This document shows positions 4,298 to 42,602 of a stretch of 64,000 nucleotides of DNA, piece after piece. Each line of letters opens with the position of its first letter. Positions within the stretch are counted from its first letter, which is position 1. The position numbers and the translations under genes are program-made. The notes below the pieces were generated by a model that saw only the letters and a program-made list of their open reading frames with translations, did no database searches and was not told the DNA's origin. The stretch is taken from positions 868,001-932,000 of the forward strand of contig NZ_CP017561.2 in the NCBI RefSeq assembly GCF_001865575.2, in the 5' to 3' direction. Origin of the DNA: Paraburkholderia sprentiae WSM5005. GTDB taxonomy: Bacteria > Pseudomonadota > Gammaproteobacteria > Burkholderiales > Burkholderiaceae.

Positions 4298-5716
4298 TTA
4301 GGCCGGCTGCGCCGCCTTCTGCATGACCCGCATCGTGCTCACGACGGCCGCGAGCGCCGAGAACCCCGCGGCCACGTACAGCGCGATGATCGTTCCGTTG
4401 TGCGGCGCAACGCCGAAGATCAGCGCGACCAGCGCCGCGCCGAGCGTTTGCCCGCTCAGGCGCGCGGTGCCGAGCATGCCGCTCGCGCCGCCGCTGCGTT
4501 CGCGCGGCGCGGACGACAGCATCGTGCGATTGTTCGGCGATTGGAAGATGCCGAAGCCGGCGCCGCACAGCGCCATGCGCCACGAGATCTGCAACGAGTC
4601 GGGGTGCGGCCCGAGCGTCGCGAGCAGCAGCAGGCCGACCGTCATCGCGGCGAGCCCGACGCCGCCGAGCCAGCCGGCCGATATTCGGTCCGACAGCACA
4701 CCGGAAATGGGTGCCGCGATGATGATGACCGCAGGCCACGGCGTCATCAAAAGACCCGTTTCGACTTGCGACATGCCGAGCGTTTCCTGCAGCAGGAACG
4801 GCAGCGACACGAACGCGAGCATCTGCGCGCAGAACGAACAGACCGACGTGCCGATCGACAGTGCGAACACCGGTATACGCAGCAGATCGATCGGCAGCAG
4901 CGGGGCGGGCCGCGTCAGTTGCCGGCGCACGAAGAAGTAGCCGATCACGAGTGCGCCGAGTGCCTCGAGCGTCACGTAGCCGAAGCGCTGGCCGTGGCCG
5001 AGGCCATCGACCGCGAAAATCAGCAGACCGAACACGAACGCGTTCATCACCGCGCTCAGATAGTCATACGGCGATTCGTGGCCGGGGTTCATCGGCAGCG
5101 CCTTGAAGCCGCCGACGATCGCCGCTATCCCGATCGGCACGTTGATCGCGAACAGCCAGGGCCAGGTCGCGACCGCCAGCACGCCCGAGGCGACCGTCGG
5201 TCCGACCGCCGACGACACCGCCACCACCATCGCGTTGATCGCGACGCCGCGGCCGAGCTGCGCCGGCGGATAGATCATGCGCACGATCGCGGTGTTCACG
5301 CTCATGATGCCGGCGGCGCCGAAGCCTTGGACCACGCGCGCGAGCGCGAGCGTCGCGAGCGAGTTCGACAGCGCGCAGCCGAACGAAGCGACCGTGAACA
5401 GAATCAGGCCCGACAGATAAATGCGCCGGTAGCCGATGCGGTCGCCCAGCGACGCGAGCGGCAGCAGCGAGATCGTGATCGCGAGCTGATACGCGTTGAC
5501 GACCCAGATCGACGCGGCGGCGCTCGCCTGGAGGTTGCGCGCGATGGTCGGCAGCGCGACGTTGGCGATCGCGCTGTCGAGCACCGCGAGCGTCAGCGAG
5601 AGCGCGATGACGAGCATCGCCCAATAGCGTTGCGGAACCGGCAGGCCTAGGTCCTTGCTTTCGAAGCGGGAAACGGAGGCCGTCGGGCCCTCCGGGCGCG
5701 GAGAGGGTGCATGCAT
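4298..5716 (-). CDS. MFS transporter, DHA2 (EmrB/QacA-like) family
   Basis: A 472-residue inner-membrane protein with about 14 hydrophobic segments, of the drug:H+ antiporter-2 type. The signature LDSAIANVALPTIA lies in the first membrane segment, motif A GDRIGYRR near 100 and the antiporter motif C GPTVASGVLA near 175. It probably exports drugs or toxic small molecules using the proton gradient; the substrate cannot be read from sequence. It is monocistronic: otsA converges on it and the YbhB-like gene stops 130 bases upstream. Confidence 0.9.
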   Translation of the reverse strand: MHAPSPRPEGPTASVSRFESKDLGLPVPQRYWAMLVIALSLTLAVLDSAIANVALPTIARNLQASAAASIWVVNAYQLAITISLLPLASLGDRIGYRRIYLSGLILFTVASFGCALSNSLATLALARVVQGFGAAGIMSVNTAIVRMIYPPAQLGRGVAINAMVVAVSSAVGPTVASGVLAVATWPWLFAINVPIGIAAIVGGFKALPMNPGHESPYDYLSAVMNAFVFGLLIFAVDGLGHGQRFGYVTLEALGALVIGYFFVRRQLTRPAPLLPIDLLRIPVFALSIGTSVCSFCAQMLAFVSLPFLLQETLGMSQVETGLLMTPWPAVIIIAAPISGVLSDRISAGWLGGVGLAAMTVGLLLLATLGPHPDSLQISWRMALCGAGFGIFQSPNNRTMLSSAPRERSGGASGMLGTARLSGQTLGAALVALIFGVAPHNGTIIALYVAAGFSALAAVVSTMRVMQKAAQPA

Positions 5717-5845
5717 CGATTGTTTGATTTGTCGGAGAGGGTGGCGCGCCTGTGCTCGGCTTACGCTGGCCGCTGCGAGCGTATCGTCGGCGCGGCGCCG
5801 GCGTTGCGGGGGCGCCGCCGCCGCGCCGCGCGCGAGCGTGCGTGC

Positions 5846-6349
5846 TTATTTGAGTTCGTAAAGCCCCGTGTGGGTCGTCGAATCGATTTCATTCAGGTGC
5901 GTCATGAAGCGCGCGACCGCGTTGGTGGTCTCCGCGCTGACCGGCAGATGCGGCACCTTCAGCGCATGCAGCCGGAAGATATAACGATGCGTGCGATCGC
6001 CGCGCGGCGGCGCGGCGCCGCCGAAGCCGACCGTCCCGTAGTCGTTGCGCACCTGCGTCGCGCCCTGCGGCAGCAGCGAGCCGTCGGCCTTGCCGGCGTT
6101 GCGCGGCAGCGAACGCGCGTCGGCCGGAATGTTCACGACGACCCAATGCCAGAAGCCGCTGCCGGTCGGCGCGTCGGGGTCGTGAACGGTGAGCGCGAAG
6201 CTTTGCGTATCCGCGGGCGGCGCTTCCCATTGCAGCGATGGCGAGATGTTTTCGCCGTCGACGCCGAATGCCTTGTCGTCGTACTCGTGGGCTTTCGGCA
6301 TGAAGCCGTTGGTGGGAAAGTCGTCGGACCAGAGACGGAAGTCAGCCAT
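5846..6349 (-). CDS. YbhB/YbcL family Raf-kinase-inhibitor-like (PEBP) protein
   Basis: The 167-residue product carries the bacterial PEBP hallmarks: SPSLQWEAPP near 38, the ligand-site motif DPDAPTGSGFWHWVVVNIP near 58-76, GTVGFGGAAPPRGDRTHRY near 105 and a Leu-rich C-terminus. Bacterial members are small soluble proteins of unknown biochemical role. ATG 6349 is chosen because GGGAGG lies just upstream and homology starts at MADFRLWSDDF; the frame stays open to 6652 but that part is not conserved. Confidence 0.93.
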   Translation of the reverse strand: MADFRLWSDDFPTNGFMPKAHEYDDKAFGVDGENISPSLQWEAPPADTQSFALTVHDPDAPTGSGFWHWVVVNIPADARSLPRNAGKADGSLLPQGATQVRNDYGTVGFGGAAPPRGDRTHRYIFRLHALKVPHLPVSAETTNAVARFMTHLNEIDSTTHTGLYELK

Positions 6350-6469
6350 GATGTGCCTCCCTTGTTGATTGGTTCTGGGATCGTCGGAGTGCGCGATGTC
6401 GCGGCGGGCGACGCGCATCTCGAGGCCTGCCGAAATGCGTGGGGACGTGCCGTGAAAGCGTCGTGAAAG

Positions 6470-6489
6470 TGCCGGGAAAGCACCCGGCA
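6470..6489 (-). terminator. possible weak terminator downstream of vsr
   Basis: A 7-base perfect stem (TGCCGGG at 6470-6476 with CCCGGCA at 6483-6489) is followed on the minus strand by CTTTC. It lies about 115 bases after the vsr stop. The tail is short, so the call is tentative. Confidence 0.3.
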
Positions 6490-6602
6490 AACGCCGCCGA
6501 CGCGTGCCTGGAAGGCATCTCGACAGCGCTCCGGGCGAGCTTTTCGAGTGTATCACCAGCGGCCGCGAGACTCGTGCGAGCCGGGCAGCTCGCGCGTGGT
6601 TT

Positions 6603-7049
6603 TCAGCCGCGTTCCTCGAACTCTGGGGCGTCGCTTCTGATCCACGCGACAAGCCGCTCGATCACGCCCGCGATATCGCGATTCGCGCCACGCAAAGCGC
6701 ATTCCCACACGACCGCCACGCGCCAGCCGCTAGCGAGCAGCGCGCCCCGCACCTTCTCGTCGTTGCTGCGATTGCGGCCGATCTTGTCGTGCCAGAACTC
6801 GGGCCGGGTCTGCGGCCATTTGAACAGATGACAGTCGTGCCCATGCCAGAAGCAGCCATGCACGAGCACCACCGCGCGATAACGCGGCAGCACGATGTCG
6901 GGACGACCGGGCAGATCGCGCGCGTCGAGCCGGAAGCGCAGACCCTGCCGATGCAGCAGGCTGCGAATCAGAACCTCGGGCCTTGTGTTGCGGCCGCGGA
7001 TGCCGGACATCATCCGGCTGCGGGTCGCGCTGTCGACGATATCGACCAT
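6603..7049 (-). CDS. vsr: very short patch repair (Vsr) DNA mismatch endonuclease
   Basis: A 148-residue protein matching Vsr throughout: DSATRSRMMSGIRGRNTRPEV at the N-terminus, RDLPGRPDIVLPRYRAVVLVHGCFWHGHDC (catalytic Asp and zinc-site His/Cys cluster, about 44-73), then a Trp- and Arg-rich C-terminal half with KIGRNRSNDEKV near 88-99. Vsr nicks 5' of T in T:G mismatches that arise by deamination of 5-methylcytosine, and normally travels with a Dcm cytosine methylase. None is adjacent here, so it is an orphan repair gene or the residue of a lost restriction-modification locus. No clear ribosome-binding site precedes ATG 7049. Confidence 0.92.
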   Translation of the reverse strand: MVDIVDSATRSRMMSGIRGRNTRPEVLIRSLLHRQGLRFRLDARDLPGRPDIVLPRYRAVVLVHGCFWHGHDCHLFKWPQTRPEFWHDKIGRNRSNDEKVRGALLASGWRVAVVWECALRGANRDIAGVIERLVAWIRSDAPEFEERG

Positions 7050-7289
7050 CGTCAGCGGGTCAACGAGTCGCTCGGCCGTTCACGCGTAGAGCGGCAGGGA
7101 GTGTTTGGAAGCATCGCGGGTCGGGTGGGCGAGCAGGGTTTGCACATGCGGCAGCATGATACGCGCCACTGCACACATCACCGGTGTCACGACGGTTGCC
7201 GCGAAAGCCGACAACGACGATGCGTTCGCGATGCCGCGGCGTGACATGCTGACCATCGACAACAGATGCGATGAGGCGGGCTGGCGCGA

Positions 7290-7616
7290 TCAGACCGATT
7301 TCAACTTCTTCACCGGGCGAGCGGGCTTGAACGGCGCGCTCGGGGCGGGCGCGAAGCGTTCCCATTCGGGCAGCGGCGTCGAAGCGAACCGATCGAGCTG
7401 CAGCAGCAGACTGTCGATCTTGCGCAATTGCGCGGAAGAGAGCTGGCCGCTGTCGACGAGCGTGGTCAGCCGTTTGCGCCAATAGGCGGCAGGCAGGATC
7501 GGGCCGCCGAAATCGCCACGCAGCGATACGTGCATGGCGCGCGTGATGTGCGCAATGTCGTGGTCGATCAACGCAGCCTGCGATGATCCTGAAATCGTAC
7601 TCTCGGTGCGGTCCAT
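7290..7616 (-). CDS. hypothetical protein, 108 aa
   Basis: The ATG at 7616 is preceded by GGGAGGGG, a strong ribosome-binding site. The soluble product has a central segment RGDFGGPILPAAYWRKRLTTLVDSG, then a Gln/Leu-rich helix (LSSAQLRKIDSLLLQLDRF) and a basic Pro/Lys tail (PFKPARPVKKLKSV). It resembles conserved Burkholderia hypotheticals of this length. I recognise no domain. The 240 bases between it and vsr hold only unsupported short frames. Confidence 0.65.
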   Translation of the reverse strand: MDRTESTISGSSQAALIDHDIAHITRAMHVSLRGDFGGPILPAAYWRKRLTTLVDSGQLSSAQLRKIDSLLLQLDRFASTPLPEWERFAPAPSAPFKPARPVKKLKSV

Positions 7617-7817
7617 GGCCCCTCCCTGAACGCATTGACGGCGCTGCGCAGCAAAACTTTAGGCGTTTCGATAAAAATTTCGCCTGTTCTCGCGACAGCG
7701 CTCATCGGTTCCCGGACTGCGCGCGCGCCACGCTGCCGGGAACAGCCGTTGCTTCGTCCCGGATACCGGCGGAATACCGCGCCGGCATTTCTGTCGACTA
7801 CGCATTGGGAGCCGAAC

Positions 7818-8009
7818 ATGAACAAGGATCAAGTGAAGGGCGTTGGCGAGCAGGTCAAGGGCAAGGTCAACGAGACCGTCGGCAAGGCCACCAACGACCC
7901 CGCGAAGGAACTCAAGGGCGACGTGCAGCAAGGCGCCGGCAAGGTGCAGAAGAGCTATGGCGACGCGAAGGAAGACGCGAAGGACGATGCAAAGCGCGGT
8001 CATCATTGA
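7818..8009 (+). CDS. CsbD family stress-response protein
   Basis: A 63-residue, highly charged protein with the CsbD pattern: MNKDQVKGVGEQVKGKVNETVGKATND, then repeats of KG/KV followed by KEDAKDDAKRGHH. CsbD proteins are small, unstructured and induced by general stress in many bacteria; their molecular role is unknown. Lys and Asp/Glu dominate and no aromatic core is present apart from one Tyr. It stands alone, divergent from the 108-aa protein. Confidence 0.92.
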   Translation: MNKDQVKGVGEQVKGKVNETVGKATNDPAKELKGDVQQGAGKVQKSYGDAKEDAKDDAKRGHH

Positions 8010-8239
8010 ACCCGTTTGGGTGCAGATGGCCGCACCGGCCCGGGCGTCGCGACTGTCGCGGCGCCTTTGCTTTTTGGGCGGCGCCGGTCGGGCACAGCGC
8101 CTCCGCTTTCATAACCCGGGTCGCGGCTGACGTTCACGCAGTGGCCGGCTTGGGAGTAACCCGTGATCGCGATGATGGGCATTCCGCCCGCGCTGCGAGC
8201 CCTTTAGACTTGGCGCAAGGTCACCAGGAGGTCGCGCCA

Positions 8240-8461
8240 ATGACACCCGAAAAAATCCTTTCGATGTTCGAACGGCAGTACCTGGAAGGCAAGGCGCCGG
8301 CCGATCTCGAAGCGACTTGCGCGAACTTCGCGACGTGGCTCGCGACCGCGTGGGAACTGCTGGACGGCACCGAGAAGGCGCTGCTGCTGACGGTCGGGGC
8401 GGCGCTGTGGCGCGAAGGCTTCAACGTGCGCGCCGGCACGGCGACGAAGGACCTGTGGTGA
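8240..8461 (+). CDS. hypothetical protein, 73 aa
   Basis: ATG 8240 follows a perfect AGGAGGT at 8226-8232. The product is mildly acidic and probably helical (ILSMFERQYLEG, LEATCANFATWLATAWELLDGTEKALLLTVGAALWREGFN). It contains one Cys and four Trp and has no signal peptide. I do not recognise it beyond its resemblance to short conserved Burkholderiales hypotheticals. The ribosome-binding site and coding-like composition make it a likely real gene. Confidence 0.65.
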   Translation: MTPEKILSMFERQYLEGKAPADLEATCANFATWLATAWELLDGTEKALLLTVGAALWREGFNVRAGTATKDLW

Positions 8462-8590
8462 ACCGCCGATCACGAACGGCGGCGGTGCGGCAGCGTTTGT
8501 AAGCTCGTCGCGCGGCCGCGCACGCGTTGTGCCGAGTCGGTTTATATTGGGCGGTCTCGCAATTTCCGTCCCATAGGGCGACTCGAACCC

Positions 8591-9298
8591 ATGACCGATC
8601 TATCCGCTTTTGCGATCACGAAGAAATGGCCGGCCGAGCATCCGGACCGGATTCAGCTCTATTCGCTGCCGACGCCCAATGGCGTAAAAATCTCGATCAT
8701 GCTCGAGGAAACCGGCTTGCCGTATGAGCCGCATCTGGTGCGCTTCGATACCAACGATCAGATGACGCCGGCGTTTCTGTCGCTGAACCCGAACAACAAG
8801 ATTCCGGCGATTCTCGATCCGAACGGTCCCGACGGCAAACCGCTGCCGCTGTTCGAATCAGGCGCGATCCTGATTTATCTCGCCGACAAAAGCGCTCAGT
8901 TGATCCCGCAGGACGCCGCGGGCCGCTACGAGACGATCCAGTGGGTGATGTTCCAGATGGGCGGCATCGGTCCGATGTTCGGCCAGCTCGGCTTCTTCCA
9001 CAAATTCGCCGGCAAGGACTATGAGGACAAGCGTCCGCGCGATCGCTACGTCGCCGAATCGAGGCGGCTGCTCCGCGTGCTGGAGCAGCGGCTAGAAGGA
9101 CGCGCATGGGTGATGGGCGATCGCTATTCGATCGCCGATATAGCGATCTTCCCATGGGTGCGCAATCTGGTCGGCTTTTACGAGGCCGGAGAGCTGGTCG
9201 GCATTCAGGACTTCCCGAACGTGAGGCGCGTGCTGGCCGCGTTCGTCGAGCGTCCGGCGGTGGTGCGCGGCCTGAATATTCCGCAGCGGCCGGCTTGA
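8591..9298 (+). CDS. glutathione S-transferase, YfcG/YghU-like (nu class)
   Basis: A 235-residue GST. The thioredoxin-like N-terminal domain (about 18-100) has the nu-class active-site stretch SLPTPNGVKISIMLEETGL, the cis-Pro NPNNKIPAILDP and the glutathione-binding FESGAILIYLAD. The helical C-terminal domain (about 105-230) ends with PAVVRGLNIP, typical of the YfcG disulfide-bond reductase group. It likely reduces disulfides or peroxides with glutathione in the cytoplasm. It is transcribed alone. Confidence 0.93.
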   Translation: MTDLSAFAITKKWPAEHPDRIQLYSLPTPNGVKISIMLEETGLPYEPHLVRFDTNDQMTPAFLSLNPNNKIPAILDPNGPDGKPLPLFESGAILIYLADKSAQLIPQDAAGRYETIQWVMFQMGGIGPMFGQLGFFHKFAGKDYEDKRPRDRYVAESRRLLRVLEQRLEGRAWVMGDRYSIADIAIFPWVRNLVGFYEAGELVGIQDFPNVRRVLAAFVERPAVVRGLNIPQRPA

Positions 9299-9328
9299 TG
9301 GCCTGAGCGTTCGACGCATCTGCTCGCG

Positions 9329-9532
9329 ATGCCGATGGTGGTCGGCCTCGCGCAGATCATCGATGGGCGGCATCGGCGGCCAGGCGATCTGGTTGGCGTG
9401 GTGATCATGGACGCGTCGACGGTGGTGACCCTCGCGTCGTATCGATGGATCGAGCGTCCGGCGAGTCGGGCCGTGGCCACGTGGATTGCCGGGGTGTCGT
9501 GGGGCAGTGCGGTAGCGGGAGCGAAGCGGTAA
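9329..9532 (+). pseudogene. possible remnant of an acyltransferase-3 C-terminus
   Basis: A 67-residue open frame without a ribosome-binding site contains ASYRWIERPASRA preceded by a hydrophobic stretch. This resembles the last membrane helix and SYRxIERP motif that end OafA-type acyltransferases. The rest of such a protein (over 300 residues) is absent; the GST gene abuts it. I read it as a decayed fragment at the edge of the accessory block. It could also be chance. Confidence 0.3.
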
Positions 9533-9676
9533 GCGCGCACCGGCGGATTGGCACGTCCTTGAAACCGATACCGCTCAACGCGTATAACCTTTGAGGCAGG
9601 GTCGGTTTTTTTACCGCCTTTTCGGGCGAGTTGCGCGCGACAGCGCTGCTATGCGACCGGATAAAAAGGTGAAGCA

Positions 9677-10516
9677 ATGAGCGTCGTTACATTGTTCGCA
9701 TGGACCGTTCCGGCGTATTTCAAAGGGTCCGTCGTCGATCATACGTGGGTGACGACTTACGACAGCCGGGCGAAGATTTACCCCGCGCTGGCCGATGTGT
9801 TGATCGCGGGAGAACACTATTGGTACAGCTGGGGTGGTTTCCACGCCAGAGGCGGCACGACGGTCAGTGCGGATGGCTTTTTGGCTTCCGCCGGGGCGGA
9901 TCTGCTTTATGCTAGTTGCTTATGTCAGCCGGACGTGGACTCGAACCTCGATCCGGCCGCTCGTGGAACGCTATTCAGCTATGGTCGCGATGGCGTATGC
10001 CATCAGCTGTCGAATCAGATTCTTTGGGCGACCGGCAGCGGTCGAGCAACCCCTGCCACGGTCCGCATGGCCAGGGGTTACTGGCTAAGCAACGCGATCT
10101 TCGGAACATACGGCAAGCAGCATGCTGCATGGGCGAGCAAAAAGATTCAGTGCTCAACCGCAAGCGGGGGTAACGCCATGGAGCCAGGACATTCGCAATC
10201 CGATGTCGACGATTTTCAGCAGCATCTTCAGGCGACCCTGAAGGGTCCGGACGCGGATGCAAAGATCAAGTCGTTGATGAATCATCGACGCGCGTTGATG
10301 GTGCGGGTCGAACGTTTGCAAGATGCGCCGCCCGGCGGCGATGCACCATCGGCTTCGACACTGAACGACGCCTATTCGTCTTTTCTCCACGACGCTGCTG
10401 ACATTCTGGGTCCCGACGACTTCGAGCGAGTTTTCGGCGAACGCCCAAAGGATGAGATGAACGTCGTCGATCCATCGGTATACGCGCAAAGTGTGCATCG
10501 GCCGAGGCCAAAATAA
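9677..10516 (+). CDS. hypothetical protein with conserved-looking His/Cys motifs, 279 aa
   Basis: Not recognised. The N-terminal 150 residues look like a compact enzyme-type domain: FKGSVVDHTWVTTYD (His22, Trp24), YWYSWGGFHARGG (about 48-60), YGRDGVCHQLSNQIL (Cys108-His109) and ARGYWLSNAIFGTYG (about 132-146). The His...Cys-His arrangement suggests a hydrolase- or amidase-like site, but that is inference. Residues 165-279 are hydrophilic and helical without Cys. There is no signal peptide. The GC content is lower than that of neighbouring core genes. It is the first gene of the low-GC block. The same frame resumes after the stop with coding-like sequence. Confidence 0.7.
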   Translation: MSVVTLFAWTVPAYFKGSVVDHTWVTTYDSRAKIYPALADVLIAGEHYWYSWGGFHARGGTTVSADGFLASAGADLLYASCLCQPDVDSNLDPAARGTLFSYGRDGVCHQLSNQILWATGSGRATPATVRMARGYWLSNAIFGTYGKQHAAWASKKIQCSTASGGNAMEPGHSQSDVDDFQQHLQATLKGPDADAKIKSLMNHRRALMVRVERLQDAPPGGDAPSASTLNDAYSSFLHDAADILGPDDFERVFGERPKDEMNVVDPSVYAQSVHRPRPK

Positions 10517-10648
10517 TTGAGCAGTAGAACTTGCGCGCGTTTCGAAGACGAAATCGGCCTATGGGGGAGTGCGCCTATCTATGGCTACAACCGCATCGCG
10601 AGCGGCACGCCGATTTCGGCAGTCAATGTCGGCGCCTATACGTCCTAA
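10517..10648 (+). pseudogene. coding-like fragment in frame with the preceding gene
   Basis: Directly after the TAA of the 279-aa gene, the same frame runs on for 43 codons with protein-like content (FEDEIGLWGSAPIYGYNR, then SGTPISAVNVGAYTS) before TAA at 10646. No ATG or ribosome-binding site starts it, though a TTG overlaps the junction. It looks like the tail of an eroded gene, or an in-frame extension cut off by a nonsense mutation. Confidence 0.25.
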
Positions 10649-10703
10649 GGCAACCCAACGACAACCATCCATGCGCAGTTTGTCGGGCTATTGGCACCCG
10701 CCA

Positions 10704-11177
10704 CTACGGACGCAGTCGCCTTCCTTCGCGCCAGCCATGCAGGCGGTAATGCAGGACAGGATCTTCTCCTACCTTGGCAACATCAGGATTTGCAAGAAGA
10801 TACTGCGCCGGATCGAAGTCGGGCGGTATAACTGCCCGCTGAGCTCCGCAATTGTTGTACATCGACTCTATGAAGCTCTTCGGAATCTCAAAACCGTTGT
10901 AGTAGTGCCTGACGGGTTCCCCTGTGAGCATATCCGTCATTTTCGAGAAATAGATCGAGCCATAGAAGGGATCGGACCTGAACGGGCGATAATAGGCGCA
11001 ACCCTCAAAGTAATAATGAGTCACTTGTGAATCGAAAACCGCAAAGCCATTCTCATTGAGGTCCCTGGCTATGCGGCGGGTTTCTTCGTCAATCGCCGGA
11101 TCCGAAAAAATTCTTTCGAAGAATGGACTTTCCACGAATGGAACGCCGGGCAACAGGTTCTTGAAATGGATCGACAT
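10704..11177 (-). CDS. short protein with phytanoyl-dioxygenase-like start and EGR-type C-terminal module
   Basis: A 157-residue protein. The N-terminal part (FFERIFSDPAIDEETRRIARDLNENGFAVFD, about 19-49) resembles the entry of phytanoyl-CoA dioxygenases. The expected iron-binding HxD and distal His region is absent, and the middle (about 50-110) matches nothing I know. The last 37 residues (FDPAQYLLANPDVA then HYRLHGWREGR) form a module seen at the ends of many glycan-related proteins. It is probably a truncated or rearranged gene, or a stand-alone module carrier. The GC content here is near 50%, far below the neighbours. It is on the same strand as the dioxygenase gene 200 bases upstream. 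Confidence 0.6.
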   Translation of the reverse strand: MSIHFKNLLPGVPFVESPFFERIFSDPAIDEETRRIARDLNENGFAVFDSQVTHYYFEGCAYYRPFRSDPFYGSIYFSKMTDMLTGEPVRHYYNGFEIPKSFIESMYNNCGAQRAVIPPDFDPAQYLLANPDVAKVGEDPVLHYRLHGWREGRRLRP

Positions 11178-11375
11178 TTTTCGGGCCTTTGCGGTGACTG
11201 AAGGACCGCGTTTGCGATCGCTTCAATAGCCTGCTACTAGGTTGTGAATCATCAATCATCCATATTAGGCGATGGGTTGGATACTGCCCGCGCTCGGCGC
11301 ATCATGCCCAGTCTCAGCAAAACTTCGGCGACGCATCGGCGTTCGCGGTAGCTTCGGTCATGCTCGCCTGAGCGC

Positions 11376-12308
11376 TTAGACGAAGCGACCTTCGGCGCGG
11401 CCACACACTTCGTAGTGATGTGTGCCTGAAGCAAACTGGCCAGCTTGAACCGCGTTCGCCACGTCCTCGTACTTGGCGAGATAGGCCTTCTCGAATTCGG
11501 CGCGGTTGAATGCCGCCTCAGGAACTTCCTGGATCGGCCTATCGATCCAGTAGCCGCATGAGTTGGCTTCCCTCAGCTTGCAGTCGAGCGACCTGGCATC
11601 TGCTTCCGAGAAATAATGGAAGACGAGGGACTTGCGCGTACGAGTCGGGTCAGCAATCGCGCTGCCACCATGCAGCAGATTCGCGTGCCAAATCAACACG
11701 TCGCCCTTCCTCGCGAAGAATGTCGTTTTTTTGAGGCCGTGTCTTTCGACTTCGCTGTCCATGTAGGAATGCCACCTCGGCATTTCTTCGGGGACAAAAT
11801 GACGGTTGCCATTGCTGAAGATCAACTGCTCGATCTTGTGGCTGCCCGGGTAGTACTCGAGCTGCCCAGCGTCGACGTGCGCGTCCTCAAGCGCCACCCA
11901 GATAGCGATCAGGTGATCGTCCGTCTTCGGTGTCATGTAGATCGCATCCACGTGCGGGGGTTGCTGGCTCCCCTTTTCAAAGTACAAGCTATTGCATAGA
12001 GCCGGGGCGTGCCCGAGCAGGTCTTTCAAGACAGCGGCAATACGCTCGGAAAGGGCAAGCTCACGAACGCTTTCCATGTCTAGGTAAAGATCATTGATCT
12101 TCATGCGCAGGGTTTCGATTTCGCGCGGCGAGAGCAGCCCCAACAGACTGCGTTCGCCGGTGTCCAGAAGGTCGACGGTCACGTTCATGGGCCGCTGCAG
12201 TTTGCGCTGCTCGATGGACTGGACAACGTCGTCCACCTGGGCGGCCGAATAAAACGCAGGCAGAATCGCGTAACCGAGTTGATCGAAAGATTGTTTGATT
12301 TCAGTCAT
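11376..12308 (-). CDS. phytanoyl-CoA dioxygenase family protein with C-terminal EGR module
   Basis: A 310-residue Fe(II)/2-oxoglutarate-dependent oxygenase. The fold's metal ligands are visible: His119-x-Asp121 in PPHVDAIYMTP and His213 in ANLLHGGSAI, with an Arg (TRTRKS, about 223-226) placed to bind 2-oxoglutarate. LEYYPGSHK (150-158) is also typical. Residues 268-310 form an extra module (YLAKYEDVA...HYEVCGRAEGR) like that in the neighbouring 157-aa protein. It probably hydroxylates a small metabolite or lipid; the substrate is unknown. The lower GC suggests transfer. It is divergent from the tRNA-Arg side by a 460-base gap. Confidence 0.85.
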   Translation of the reverse strand: MTEIKQSFDQLGYAILPAFYSAAQVDDVVQSIEQRKLQRPMNVTVDLLDTGERSLLGLLSPREIETLRMKINDLYLDMESVRELALSERIAAVLKDLLGHAPALCNSLYFEKGSQQPPHVDAIYMTPKTDDHLIAIWVALEDAHVDAGQLEYYPGSHKIEQLIFSNGNRHFVPEEMPRWHSYMDSEVERHGLKKTTFFARKGDVLIWHANLLHGGSAIADPTRTRKSLVFHYFSEADARSLDCKLREANSCGYWIDRPIQEVPEAAFNRAEFEKAYLAKYEDVANAVQAGQFASGTHHYEVCGRAEGRFV

Positions 12309-12697
12309 TTGGGACCCTGTATGCGCAGCTGACGACGCAATCGATCGGCATAGCGCGCGAAAGTTGGGAAATTGAACGCCGTATTGTAGCTGGGCGGCAG
12401 TCCGGGTATTTCGGTCGGCCGCCGAAAAGATGATCGTCCTTTCCGGATAAACGCGACTCGCTGATGCGTTTTCCTATGGCTATGAAGATAGCCCCGACGG
12501 GCTAGTAGTCAAGTAGCACCCGTGAGCTGCGGAATCTCCACCGGCTTCAATGCTGTACTGGAAGACCGCGCGCGAACACTGCAGGGTGCGTCTGGCGGTG
12601 TCCCGGACACGGCGGGTCTGGACCGCCCGGAGGAATCGCCCTACCGATACCCAGGAAATCCGGTTCGTACTGGGCAACCGCGAGCAATGGTGACAGC
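12309..12697. other. intergenic stretch beside tRNA-Arg
   Basis: It contains the upstream region of the dioxygenase gene (AT-rich around 12360-12490) and a possible 47-codon frame on the plus strand, listed separately. There is no direct repeat of the tRNA 3' end here that would mark an attachment site, as far as I can see by eye. Confidence 0.4.
12550..12693 (+). CDS. possible small ORF or gene fragment, 47 aa
   Basis: The frame starting ATG 12550 encodes a basic, Arg- and Trp-containing peptide (MLYWKTAREHCRVR, then RRVWTARRNRP and TQEIRFVLGNREQW). No ribosome-binding site precedes it. The C-terminal part reads like real protein, so it may be the remnant of a gene disrupted next to the tRNA. 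Weak support. Confidence 0.2.
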   Translation: MLYWKTAREHCRVRLAVSRTRRVWTARRNRPTDTQEIRFVLGNREQW

Positions 12698-12735
12698 AAA
12701 AAGCCCCGCAGCGCAACGCATACGGGGCTTTTCTG
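12698..12735 (-). terminator. intrinsic terminator of tRNA-Arg
   Basis: On the minus strand an AAAAGCCCCG/CGGGGCTTTT stem closes a 12-base loop and is followed by TTTTTG. It lies about 30 bases beyond the tRNA 3' end, as expected for a single tRNA transcript. Confidence 0.85.
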
Positions 12736-12765
12736 GGCAATCTTGGGACTGGCTGGGAAGCTATC

Positions 12766-12840
12766 TGGTCCCCCTGACAGGAATCGAACCTGTATCTAGC
12801 GCTTAGGAGGCACTTGTTCTATCCATTGAACTACAGGGAG
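12766..12840 (-). tRNA. tRNA-Arg (anticodon CCT)
   Basis: Read on the minus strand, the 75 bases fold as a tRNA. The acceptor CTCCCTG pairs with CAGGGGG. The D-stem is GTTC/GAAC. The anticodon arm AGTGC-CTCCTAA-GCGCT has anticodon CCT (reads AGG). The T-arm is ACAGG-TTCGAAT-CCTGT, and CCA is encoded at 12766-12768. It serves a rare Arg codon. Its 3' end faces the low-GC block, the arrangement typical of tRNA-targeted integration. Confidence 0.97.
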
Positions 12841-12992
12841 AGGACCGAGCCGGGCAAACCGGCGAGGACTCGGCGAGTCCAGATCGACCAGCGAGCGCAG
12901 AGTATATCAAACCGGCGCGGGCAAAAGGAGAGCGGGGGCATCGCCTGCCGGGCCGCGCAACCGCGCCCATCGCCCAAGGGTCATCTCACCGT

Positions 12993-13184
12993 TTAAAACT
13001 CCACCACCGCGAACTCCGCCTTGTCCACGTCGCACAGCGGGCAGCGCCAGTCTGCCGGGATGTCCGCGAAGCGCGTGCCCGGCGCGATGCCATCTTCGGG
13101 CAGGCCGTCTTCCTCGTTGTAGATCCAGCCGCAAATCAGGCAGACCCAGCTCTTATATTCCGTCACTTCGATTACTTCGCTCAC
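12993..13184 (-). CDS. rubredoxin
   Basis: A 63-residue iron protein. The two Cys pairs that bind a single Fe are WVCLICGWIYNEEDG (CxxCG) and DWRCPLCDVDKAEF (CPLC), with the intervening DGIAPGTRFADIPADW typical of rubredoxins. It carries one electron, in Burkholderiales probably to oxygenases or to redox stress defence. A short N-terminal extension (MSEVIEVTEY) precedes the domain. It is divergent from the ABC-F gene. Confidence 0.95.
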   Translation of the reverse strand: MSEVIEVTEYKSWVCLICGWIYNEEDGLPEDGIAPGTRFADIPADWRCPLCDVDKAEFAVVEF

Positions 13185-34684: not shown

Positions 34685-34940
34685 ATTTGAACTACCTCTG
34701 GTTGTTGACGTCCGCCCACAGTGAGGCCTGGAAAGCCGTGCCGCCCGGTGAGCGATCGTGGGTGTGAGCGTGCGATTTTGTCTGTTGGAGCTCGATTCGG
34801 CCTCCGTACCGGAATATCGGCATGGCACTGCGAATCTTGAATCGTGCGAAAACGGCGCACTGGGTCCACGGTGGGCAGCTCAGCCGAGGCAGTTCCGGCT
34901 CGATGTCAAATGAGCCGGAATACGCCGCTTTGATTCGCCG

Positions 34941-39410: not shown

Positions 39411-40097
39411 TCAGTACTGCACGACGATCGCGACCCGCCGATTCGCCGCTCGCGCGGCGGCATCATCGCCCGCGATCAGCGGGAAATTGTCCGCCCGCCC
39501 GATCGCGGCCAGCCGATGCGGTTCGATCCCACGCTCGACCAGATACCTGACCACCGCTCCGGCGCGAGCCGACGACAGCTCCCAGTTGGACGCATACTTC
39601 GCGGTCGAAATCGGCACACTGTCGGTATGTCCTTCGACGAGCACATTCCCCGTCGAATCCTTTTGCAGTACCTGCGCGATCTGATTCAGTACCTCGAACG
39701 AATCGGGCAGCAGCCGCGCGTCGCCGGCGTTGAACAGGATCTTCGCGTTGACGGCGATTTCGACGCCGTGCGGCACCTCCGTCACCGTGATCAGCCCTTT
39801 CTCGCGCAGCGCATCGAGCAATGCGCTCAGTTGCTTATGCGCATCCTGTTGGGCGCCGCCTGCCGGTGCGGGCACGCTGTGCTGCGCCGTTTGTGTTTCG
39901 AGCGTCTGATACCTGAGCTCGAGTTGCCTCGATTTCGCCAACTGCAACGCATACAGCGCGAGGAACAGCACCATCATCGTCGTGATGAGGTCCGCGTACG
40001 AGATCAGCCAGCGGCCGCCCTCGGTGCCTTCGCCGCCGGGTTCGGCGTGATCGTCCGCGCCGCTGGCGAGGCGCTTGGTGCCAGACGTCGTTTGCAT
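39411..40097 (-). CDS. MotB-like stator subunit (OmpA-domain flagellar motor protein)
   Basis: A 228-residue inner-membrane protein. A single N-terminal helix carries the MotB proton-path motif WLISYADLITTMMVLFLALYAL with Asp36. A linker follows (about 55-100), then an OmpA-like peptidoglycan-binding domain: LVEGHTDSVPISTAKYASNWELSSARAGAVVRYL and AANRRVAIVV. It would form the ion-conducting stator with the MotA-like protein encoded 59 bases upstream. It resembles MotD of Pseudomonas. No flagellar genes are nearby; the partner upstream is a cNMP-binding/FliG-like protein, so its role may not be flagellar. Confidence 0.93.
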   Translation of the reverse strand: MQTTSGTKRLASGADDHAEPGGEGTEGGRWLISYADLITTMMVLFLALYALQLAKSRQLELRYQTLETQTAQHSVPAPAGGAQQDAHKQLSALLDALREKGLITVTEVPHGVEIAVNAKILFNAGDARLLPDSFEVLNQIAQVLQKDSTGNVLVEGHTDSVPISTAKYASNWELSSARAGAVVRYLVERGIEPHRLAAIGRADNFPLIAGDDAAARAANRRVAIVVQY

Positions 40098-40156
40098 ACG
40101 TGATAGGTCCGATTCGAATGACAGCGCGCCGCTGAGCCACGCGCCCTATGACAGGT

Positions 40157-40921
40157 TTAGGCCAGCGACTCCGCCGCGCGTCCGCGCACTTCGCCTGTCA
40201 GGCGCGTCTCGATCGTATGCGGCGACTCCTTGCGCGAAATCGCGAGCAGTCCGTCGAGATAAAGCCGGCGAAACCGCACTTCACTGTCGACCTGCGCCTG
40301 GAGCTTGCCGTACAGCGGCAGAAACACCAGATTCGCGAGCGCGAGACCATACAACGTGGCGACGAACGCCGTCGCGATCCCCGAGCCGAGTTGCGCCGGG
40401 TCGAGAATGTGATTGGTGACCTGGATCAGCCCGAGCACCGAGCCGAGAATGCCGAAGGTCGGCGCATAGCCGCCCGCCTGCTGCCACACGCGCGCCGCCG
40501 CCATGTGATTGCGCGCATACGCATCGAGCTCGCGCTGCAGCGCATCTTCGAGCACGGCGGTCGATACGCCGTTCGCGAGCAGTTCGAGCCCGCGTCTGGC
40601 GAACGGATGAATGCCGCTGACATCCATCGATTCGAACGCGAGCAGGCCGTTGAGCTTCGCCTGGTCACCCCATTCGAGCAGATCCGACAGGCTCTTCCGG
40701 TCCACCTGCCGTGCGCGCGTGAACGCGAGGCCGAGCAGCTTCACCGCGTCGAAAAAACGTGCCCACGTGTTCTGGATCATCACCGCGCCGAGCGTGCCGC
40801 CGAGCACGATGACGAACGCCTCGTACTGGAACAGCGTCAGAAAATGCCCGCCTTCGAGCGCGAAGCCAAAAACGATTGCCGCTCCACCGAACAGCACACC
40901 GAATAACGTCAACAGATCCAT
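40157..40921 (-). CDS. MotA-like stator subunit (MotC-type)
   Basis: A 254-residue inner-membrane protein with four helices: about 4-22, 32-50, 150-170 and 182-205. The two functional prolines of MotA are in place (Pro154 in GGYAPTFGILGSVLGLI, Pro202 in LVFLPLYGKL), and the large cytoplasmic loop (52-148) holds charged residues (HPFARRGLELL) of the rotor-contact region. Start 40921 follows CGAGGAAAA. It is the middle gene of the operon. Together with the MotB-like protein it should conduct protons and exert force on a FliG-type partner. Confidence 0.93.
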   Translation of the reverse strand: MDLLTLFGVLFGGAAIVFGFALEGGHFLTLFQYEAFVIVLGGTLGAVMIQNTWARFFDAVKLLGLAFTRARQVDRKSLSDLLEWGDQAKLNGLLAFESMDVSGIHPFARRGLELLANGVSTAVLEDALQRELDAYARNHMAAARVWQQAGGYAPTFGILGSVLGLIQVTNHILDPAQLGSGIATAFVATLYGLALANLVFLPLYGKLQAQVDSEVRFRRLYLDGLLAISRKESPHTIETRLTGEVRGRAAESLA

Positions 40922-40986
40922 AGTTTTCCTCGAACGGCGCCGCACTCGCGCTTGCGCGTATCAGCAACGGCGCGCCGTCAAACCGC

Positions 40987-42237
40987 TTAGCGCGCGGCGT
41001 CCTGCAGCGCCGCGAGCGGCGCGGGCGGTGCCTTCAGCGTCTTCACCGCGTCGAGCAGCCGTTGCTCGATGTCGCTAATTTCGACCGTATCGATCTTGAT
41101 ATCGCGCCGCATCACCCACGACACCTCGTTGCGGCGCACTTCGGTCATCACCGACAGCAGGCGCTCCGCCACCGGCCGGCCGTCGACGCTCGCGAGCAGC
41201 TTGGCGAGATCGTACGTATCGAAGCCACTGACGACGTCGAACAGCGTGCGCTGGTCGACGAACGCGAGATCGTCGAGCGAATTCAGCGCGCCGCTCTGGC
41301 GCGTCGTGCGCCGCGAGAAATACGCGACACCTTGCTGCTCGACATAGGTCAGTACCTTCGACTTACGGAAGGCGAAGACCTCGTCGGCGATCTCGCCGTG
41401 CGACAGCTTGTTCAGAATCAACGTCTTGTCGACGCCGATCAGCGCTTCCAGATCGGTCAGCTCGATCAGTTCGAGCTCGCTGCTCACCGCGATATCGAGC
41501 TCGCTGTCCGCAACCTGCTGCGCGCGATCGACGATGCGCGCGGCGTCGAACGTGACGACCTGGCGCGCGGCCGCGCCGTCATACGCCGAGTATTCGGTCG
41601 ACACGTTACCGAGTTGCCCCGGCTGCGCGGCCTCGATCGTCACGAGGTTGAGCTTCTCCATCCGCTTGAGCATCGCCATCACGTGCGGACGCGAATGGCC
41701 GGCAATCGCGCGGCACTTCTTGATCACTTCGACGAGCGGCACCGAGATTTCCTCGGCCTGCGCTTGCAGTGGACGGCGTCCCCAACTGTCGTTCGCCTCG
41801 CGCCGTTCGCCGTGCGACATCAGCGTCAGCACGTGCGCATACGACAGCACGCCGGGGAGAAAATCGGCGTGCGTATAGGTTGCGAGCAGATCGTCCTTGC
41901 GCTTCACGCGACGAATCAGCGTGCGCGTGATATGGCGCAGCAGCGGCGACACGCGTTCGATCTCGTCATCGAGCACGCTGGCCGGCACGACGGTCAGTTG
42001 ACAGAACGTCAGCGCCTTCGCGGTATTGCTGCGCGGCTCGGCAGCAAGCAACGCGGCTTCACCGAAAAATTCGCCTCGGCCGAGCGTCGCGACGACGACC
42101 TTCTTGTCGTCGCAGCGAGTGGAAAGCTCGACCTTGCCTTCCGTGATCAGAAAAACGACGGGCTCACCCGAGTAGCCCTCGGAATAGATGACCTCGCCGG
42201 GCGCCGCTGTGCGCGTCCACGACTGTTGACGATTCAA
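40987..42237 (-). CDS. cyclic-nucleotide-binding / winged-helix-like / FliG C-terminal-like fusion protein
   Basis: A 416-residue soluble protein. Residues about 8-110 are a cNMP-binding domain with phosphate cassette GEFFGEAALLAAEPRS (Glu60, Arg69). Residues about 160-205 look like a Crp-type winged helix (EVIKKCRAIAGHSRPHVMAMLKRMEKLNLVTIE). Residues about 318-402 resemble the FliG C-terminal motor domain (SLDDLAFVDQRTLFDVVSGFDTYDLAKLL, then RDIKIDTVEISDIEQRLLDAVKTL). I use TTG 42237 because AGGGG lies 8 bases before it and the domain starts there; ATG 42315 would add 26 unconserved residues. It heads the operon with the MotA- and MotB-like genes (65-base gap) and probably links cAMP or c-di-GMP sensing to that stator. 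The domain reading is by motif only. Confidence 0.88.
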   Translation of the reverse strand: MNRQQSWTRTAAPGEVIYSEGYSGEPVVFLITEGKVELSTRCDDKKVVVATLGRGEFFGEAALLAAEPRSNTAKALTFCQLTVVPASVLDDEIERVSPLLRHITRTLIRRVKRKDDLLATYTHADFLPGVLSYAHVLTLMSHGERREANDSWGRRPLQAQAEEISVPLVEVIKKCRAIAGHSRPHVMAMLKRMEKLNLVTIEAAQPGQLGNVSTEYSAYDGAAARQVVTFDAARIVDRAQQVADSELDIAVSSELELIELTDLEALIGVDKTLILNKLSHGEIADEVFAFRKSKVLTYVEQQGVAYFSRRTTRQSGALNSLDDLAFVDQRTLFDVVSGFDTYDLAKLLASVDGRPVAERLLSVMTEVRRNEVSWVMRRDIKIDTVEISDIEQRLLDAVKTLKAPPAPLAALQDAAR

Positions 42238-42602
42238 TGTAATTCCCCTGCAGCGCGGTTTTGTAGTTGCAGCTGCGCGACGCGACGCAATTGCGTCGCA
42301 TGGGTCGGCAGCCATTGCCTGTACGCCCGTTTACGACATCGCGGCAGGGACTCTTTAACGGGCCAAGGAGGGCAGGACTGCGAGGAAGCGCGCCGCAAAC
42401 CGCGCTGCAGATGGGAAGAACGGCGACAAAACGATCGGTGAATCGTTTGCGCGTGGCGTGATGGCGCAATATGCCGCGACATAGCGGCCGTCAAAATTTT
42501 TTGTTGATGCAGTTCGAAAACGTTTGCGCGACATCGCGCGCCGCAGCGAATGCTATGCTCTCGGTCGACCGAAATAGTGCGCCCACGGCGCGACATCCAC
42601 AC
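42238..42602. other. divergent upstream region of the stator operon and the methyltransferase-like gene
   Basis: A 365-base gap between divergent genes. It contains an AT-rich island at 42490-42512 (AAAATTTTTTGTTGATG) and a TATGCT hexamer near 42555 that could be a -10 for the plus-strand gene. No RNA gene or repeat is evident. Confidence 0.4.

Follow-up and report, generated by a model that had tools for sequence, protein, structure and literature searches.

The choice between stator sets and the access of second messengers to the flagellar motor are open questions, known mostly through PilZ/c-di-GMP proteins, and YcgR and FlgZ are second-messenger-binding proteins that act on the motor. The same is described for MotL (PMC8203827), and a second stator is reported in Pseudomonas putida (PMC9765564). 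The trio of genes described here, found in a window of 64 kb (the whole stretch of DNA that was analysed), encodes a protein with a cyclic-nucleotide-binding (cNMP) domain and a FliG C-terminal domain, termed the head, followed by a MotA (MotA2) and a MotB (MotB2). As in the MotCD-type second flagellar stators of Pseudomonas, the trio MotA exceeds the cut-off of the PRK09109 model, the MotB is nearest to MotD, although below its cut-off, and the pair coexists with another MotAB. The trio differs from MotCD in the fixed third gene for the cNMP-FliG_C protein, in its position outside the flagellar cluster and in the conserved EWGD-x-AK region of its MotA. The head would resemble YcgR, FlgZ and MotL as a second-messenger-binding protein acting on the motor; these, however, use PilZ and c-di-GMP, whereas the head joins a CRP-type cNMP domain to a FliG-C module and is encoded together with its own stator. 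Unlike FliG, it is devoid of the FliG_N and FliG_M domains and of the torque charges, and is fused to a CRP-like body. Among CRP-type proteins, Bd1971 is closest in fold to the N-terminal cNMP domain and Bd2879 resembles the region that follows it, but the head adds to their plan the C-terminal FliG domain and an operon with stator genes. In its working, the trio may come closest to the regulators through which second messengers act on the motor, YcgR and MotL among them, but its combination of parts differs from each of them.

Two other families of ion-driven motors were also compared. Zorya (ZorAB) is likewise a MotAB-type inner-membrane motor, and ZorB models match the trio MotB with up to 68.9 bits, but the trio MotA has only 254 aa and a FliA-type promoter precedes the trio. 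ZorA gave no match in the trio MotA at E<=1, nor was any Zor partner matched among nine neighbour proteins at E<=0.001. The Zorya identity, with its long cytoplasmic ZorA tail and ZorC/D/E partners, was rejected, as was an ExbB/TolQ transport motor, the window MotA scoring 13.8 bits for TolQ compared with 248.2 bits for the MotC-type model.

Layout of the trio and domains of the head protein

The head, motA and motB genes form an operon-like series on the minus strand (42237-39411), separated by 65 and 59 nt, and the sequence-only reading had given coordinates, strand and gaps correctly. The head start codon is most likely the TTG at 42237, because this residue is also the first one in several close relatives; an alternative upstream ATG at 42315 is possible. 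The nearest named proteins belong to Paraburkholderia and Burkholderia sp. H160. No description of the head-motA-motB combination was found in the literature searched, in line with the earlier remark that the arrangement is not known as a characterised system. The features of the locus are as follows.

42331..42357, minus strand: FliA (sigma-28)-type promoter, TAAAG-N15-GTCGTAA, lying 120 nt before the start codon of the head gene
40987..42237, minus strand: head gene, 416-aa CRP-type protein with a C-terminal FliG_C domain
41956..42213, minus strand: cyclic-nucleotide-binding domain (aa 9-94), with a phosphate-binding cassette in which Glu60 and Arg69 are conserved
41545..41751, minus strand: tentative CRP-type winged-helix-like region, about aa 163-231 (Foldseek and profile similarity)
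41335..41391, minus strand: 19-aa segment (aa 283-301) containing FAFR, present in trio heads and not in three stand-alone heads
41023..41289, minus strand: FliG C-terminal (stator-facing) domain, aa 317-405
41104..41118, minus strand: W-x-M-R-R motif of trio heads, aa 374-378
40157..40921, minus strand: MotA-like stator subunit, 254 aa, MotC type (NCBIfam NF006583 (PRK09109), closest solved chain, conservation in 50 sequences)
39411..40097, minus strand: MotB-like stator subunit, 228 aa, with Asp36 and an OmpA domain (Pfam MotB_plug and OmpA)

The earlier description of the head as cNMP-binding and FliG-C-like was confirmed in both halves. The Pfam cNMP_binding model was matched with 68.4 bits (cut-off 27.5), and in the head alignment Glu60 of the phosphate-binding cassette is invariant and Arg69 invariant or nearly so. 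We infer that the head binds cAMP or cGMP, and a putative ligand-gated motor is plausible; class III cyclase domains number four in the host. In other bacteria, related cNMP domains are joined to different partners, namely an ion channel in Bdellovibrionia and a chemoreceptor signalling domain in Paenibacillus (L148, L149). The Pfam FliG_C match of the window head (aa 320-402) reached 16.8 bits, below the cut-off of 23.3; the domain was matched at E<=1 in 21 of the 25 members of the head alignment, the window counted (best 3.4e-6), and with 24.6 bits, over the cut-off, in the Azohydromonas homologue P0174. As the predicted structure also backs this fold, the FliG_C domain on a cNMP-binding head protein is genuine.

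The FliG_N and FliG_M domains, for which the FliG of Burkholderia sp. lig30 scores 111 and 100.5 bits as a positive comparison, were absent from the families matched by the 25 head members at E<=1. The charged torque residues of E. coli FliG are K264, R281, D288, D289 and R297. In the head the K264 position is uncharged, and the acidic pair is lost in every placement tried for the torque helix, the register of which is ambiguous in the manual alignment. Having neither the N and M domains of FliG nor its torque charges, the head is unlikely to be a torque-bearing rotor. Contact with its own MotA is suggested, since FAFR (50 of 50 trio heads) and W-x-M-R-R (49 of 50, the exception being L092), both found in none of the three stand-alone heads, are confined to trio heads, and the cognate MotA carries the EWGD-x-AK region.

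The second stator pair and its distribution

The stator assignments of the sequence-only reading also held. The window MotA exceeded the Pfam cut-offs of MotA_ExbB (91.7 bits) and MotA_N (33.5 bits), and the two key prolines, P154 and P202, lie in conserved blocks common to solved MotA chains, of which 9lu9 MotA is the nearest. It scored 248.2 bits (cut-off 237) for NCBIfam NF006583 (PRK09109), which we take to be MotC. An EWGD-x-A-K motif at aa 83-89 is conserved across 50 sequences and corresponds to what is presumably the rotor-facing region in other stators. The window MotB matched OmpA (66.4 bits) and MotB_plug (43.9 bits), with Asp36, the ion-binding position, within the plug segment; its best NCBIfam model was MotD NF006541, at 174.7 bits below the cut-off of 283. 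The host genome contains one FliG match over the cut-off, which is the canonical fliG, and eight MotA/ExbB matches over the cut-off, including another MotA-MotB pair that presumably stands behind FlhC. The window MotA-MotB is a second stator of the host beside another motAB, and does not have the place of a sole motility stator, which the sequence-only reading had named as one finding that would speak against a new system.

The head was found in 88 of 349 family genomes (E<=1e-20), the window-type MotA in 91 (E<=1e-35) and both together in 87. One genome (G387) has a head, divergent, without MotA2, and the four with a MotA2-like protein and no head comprise one contig-end fragment and three proteins at 35-37% identity. 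Wherever an orthologous locus retrieved by similarity was not truncated at the end of a contig, the three genes stood together, the exceptions being three divergent stand-alone heads (L070-L072); this grouping exceeds chance. Soil relatives of Burkholderia carry the trio, among them the soil strain Paraburkholderia xenovorans LB400 (L118). In Trinickia terrae (L125), about 1 kb of extra sequence (11996-13021) lies between motA and motB. The trio is dispensable, because the head occurs in 27 of the 49 genomes sampled from the genus of the window. Its genes are placed outside the flagellar cluster, and some relatives carry them on large plasmids or secondary chromosomes; one of the records filed as plasmids is an 853-kb mobilizable plasmid. 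FliG is present in 87 of the 88 head-bearing genomes, an association confounded by phylogeny since the FliG-less genomes belong mostly to other genera.

The FliA-type promoter and flagellar surroundings

The FliA consensus as generally known was used for the first search of upstream regions. It had its best or tied-best match (1-3 mismatches of 13) at a single conserved position, about 84-142 nt ahead of the gene, in each of 50 regions, namely those of 49 loci and that of the window. The pattern derived from the 50 sites, T[AC]AAG-N14/15-[GA]NCG[AT][TA]A, occurs in 50 of 50 regions of its own set compared with 8 of 20,000 first-order random sequences, and its reversed form in none of the 50; in the whole window, two matches to the FliA-type pattern were observed and 0.17 expected by chance. 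Pairwise identity within the upstream regions was 94% and 82% in the two elements (partly forced by the pattern), compared with 42% in the spacer and 30-32% in the flanks. Among 18 trio-type loci unused for drawing the pattern, 16 carry a FliA-type site, the two exceptions being a TTAAG variant (L077) and a locus with only a 4-mismatch relic (L079).

A site matrix trained on 48 trio sites, with the window and its nearest relative left out, was scanned over six segments (120 kb) of the host flagellar region, where the names flgM, fliS, ycgR and fliC were assigned by reading translations. The trio site of the window scored 32.4 and the site before flgM 22.2, and only these two stand clearly above the control DNA, in which scores of 8-15 also occur (maximum 14.9). 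The best hits of three further segments precede fliS (12.4), ycgR (9.0) and fliC (8.4), and those of two of the six segments do not precede flagellar genes, one lying inside a cheB-like frame and one before an efflux-type gene; none of the matrix sites listed stands before the main motAB. Control by the flagellar cascade, the other finding that the sequence-only reading had set against a new system, is suggested at the level of sequence, by a FliA-type promoter assigned by consensus. A second strong FliA-type site in the window, at 34840 on the minus strand (TCAAG-N14-GCCGATAT, score 19.1), precedes a lipoprotein-like gene without a Pfam match (34828-34124), which is followed by another lipoprotein-like gene (34090-33503); judged from this site, the two genes may be unrecognised members of the flagellar regulon.

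The three stand-alone heads are 33-44% identical and have no adjoining MotAB. All three carry a FliA-type site with 2 mismatches to the consensus, and because they keep this site the head may by itself be a member of the flagellar regulon. In a neighbour domain scan of L070 and L072, the former (5677-9792) was found near a GGDEF-EAL gene and the latter (8429-11326) near a gene for a VpsR-type sigma-54 activator, both of which are c-di-GMP-related.

The earlier statement that the window holds no flagellar genes stood for the queries used, as one FliG and two chemoreceptor signalling regions gave no tblastn match in the 64 kb. In relatives, a chemoreceptor gene lies near the trio in 28 of 76 records (some genomes counted twice), and 48, the window included, are without one; the two chemoreceptor queries came from two of the genomes among these records. 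No chemoreceptor was found in 120 kb of other host DNA, a small control. The gene stands about 110-130 nt behind motB in Burkholderia cepacia and pseudomultivorans (L093 and L095) and directly before the head in plasmid PPGU19_p3 and L079, with other arrangements elsewhere. The sensor domains of the five chemoreceptors checked fall into three types, as two have dCache (one of them below cut-off), two TarH or a four-helix bundle and one Cache_3-Cache_2, and the trio-linked chemoreceptors were therefore probably recruited more than once. A full-length fliG in Burkholderia sp. lig30 (L135) lies 0.65 kb behind motB and is followed by a chemoreceptor. The only two FliG matches found in lig30 (L170 4132-5160 and L173 9158-10156), one of which sits behind the trio, are on contigs other than that of fliM and are 66% identical to the host FliG, compared with best values of 85-100% in the 78 other FliG-bearing head genomes searched.

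The sole head-bearing genome without FliG (G580, Paraburkholderia; 1 of 88) also yielded no FliM, and none of its sigma factors reached the cut-off for FliA, the best score being 107.5 bits compared with 283-289 in seven other genomes searched. Its trio (L080 8349-11169) has a frameshifted head and a motB in three pieces in different frames, which could partly be sequencing error in this one genome; motA is open, the promoter motif survives and a flagellin gene is retained. This decay points to a flagellar role, although taken alone it is weak evidence.

Weighing of the possible roles

The trio appears, from these sequence comparisons, to belong to the flagellar gene programme and not to form a separate machine. 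The sequence-only reading had considered it possibly not flagellar, that is, a non-flagellar ion-driven motor or force-transducing module like Zorya, Exb/Tol or the gliding motors, and this is consistent with the position of the genes outside the flagellar cluster, on large plasmids or secondary chromosomes in relatives, with the other motAB already present in the host and with the ZorB matches to MotB. However, a FliA-type promoter stands before nearly every relative tested, chemoreceptors and once fliG are neighbours, the trio has decayed in the genome without FliG, FliM and FliA, MotA fits flagellar stator models best and no Zorya partner was among the nine neighbours scanned, which makes a non-flagellar machine improbable. 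The least probable reading is that the trio provides a second flagellar stator of the usual MotCD type, behind an incidental, perhaps inactive cNMP protein. The PRK09109 score of MotA and the existence of second stators, for instance that of P. putida (PMC9765564), agree with it, but orthologous head and MotA2 occur together in 87 genomes, the one orthologous MotA2 seen without a head is a fragment at a contig end, the cassette of the cNMP domain is conserved and the head motifs track the presence of MotAB.

The CRP-like body of the head raises another alternative, in which the head is primarily a CRP-family transcription factor seated on the stator or rotor by its FliG-C domain and released to DNA, forming a load- or assembly-sensing relay. 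The best Foldseek matches of the head are CRP-family proteins, with alignments reaching into their DNA-binding domain; owing to a different arrangement of the domains, the query TM-score is only about 0.22 and the rmsd is in most cases 14-20 A. A profile search matched aa 9-206 to Bd2879 (9sfa; E 1.5e-9), which according to its authors has two winged helices and is a putative transcription factor (PMC12750041), and the stand-alone heads have FliA-type sites yet no adjoining MotAB. Set against this, HTH_Crp had no Pfam match in any of the 25 head alignment members at E<=1, and the whole-model pLDDT of the predicted structure is 68.6, with an uncertain domain arrangement. A primary role as transcription factor is rather unlikely, and the head may also work on DNA in addition to a role at the motor. 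In a fuller form of this alternative, a transcription factor would attach to the stator ring by means of a FliG mimic, and genes would be controlled jointly by the cyclic-nucleotide level and by the occupancy or load of the stator. This form is unlikely too; if true, the relay from motor to gene would be direct, and the accessory stator would be a sensor as much as an engine.

With somewhat better than even confidence, we judge the trio to be an accessory stator unit of the flagellum, expressed from a FliA-type promoter, that has its own cNMP-responsive, FliG-C-bearing regulator; the head would serve as a decoy rotor or clutch. FliA would switch on the operon from its own promoter, late in the flagellar programme. 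For the steps after transcription, we infer that MotA2-MotB2 would join the flagellar stator pool, and that the head, with its intact nucleotide cassette, would bind cAMP or cGMP and, through the FliG-C domain, dock on its cognate MotA2 at the cytoplasmic ring; stand-alone heads would dock on the main motor instead. As a decoy rotor or clutch, the head would hold or release the stator and so decide its engagement with the flagellar rotor, and the cyclic-nucleotide state and chemoreceptor input could alter the set of stators that powers the motor. Motor control would here take a different route, by way of a cyclic-nucleotide switch that is joined to the part of FliG facing the stator and comes with a stator of its own, and the head would offer a natural FliG mimic for dissecting the rotor-stator contact.
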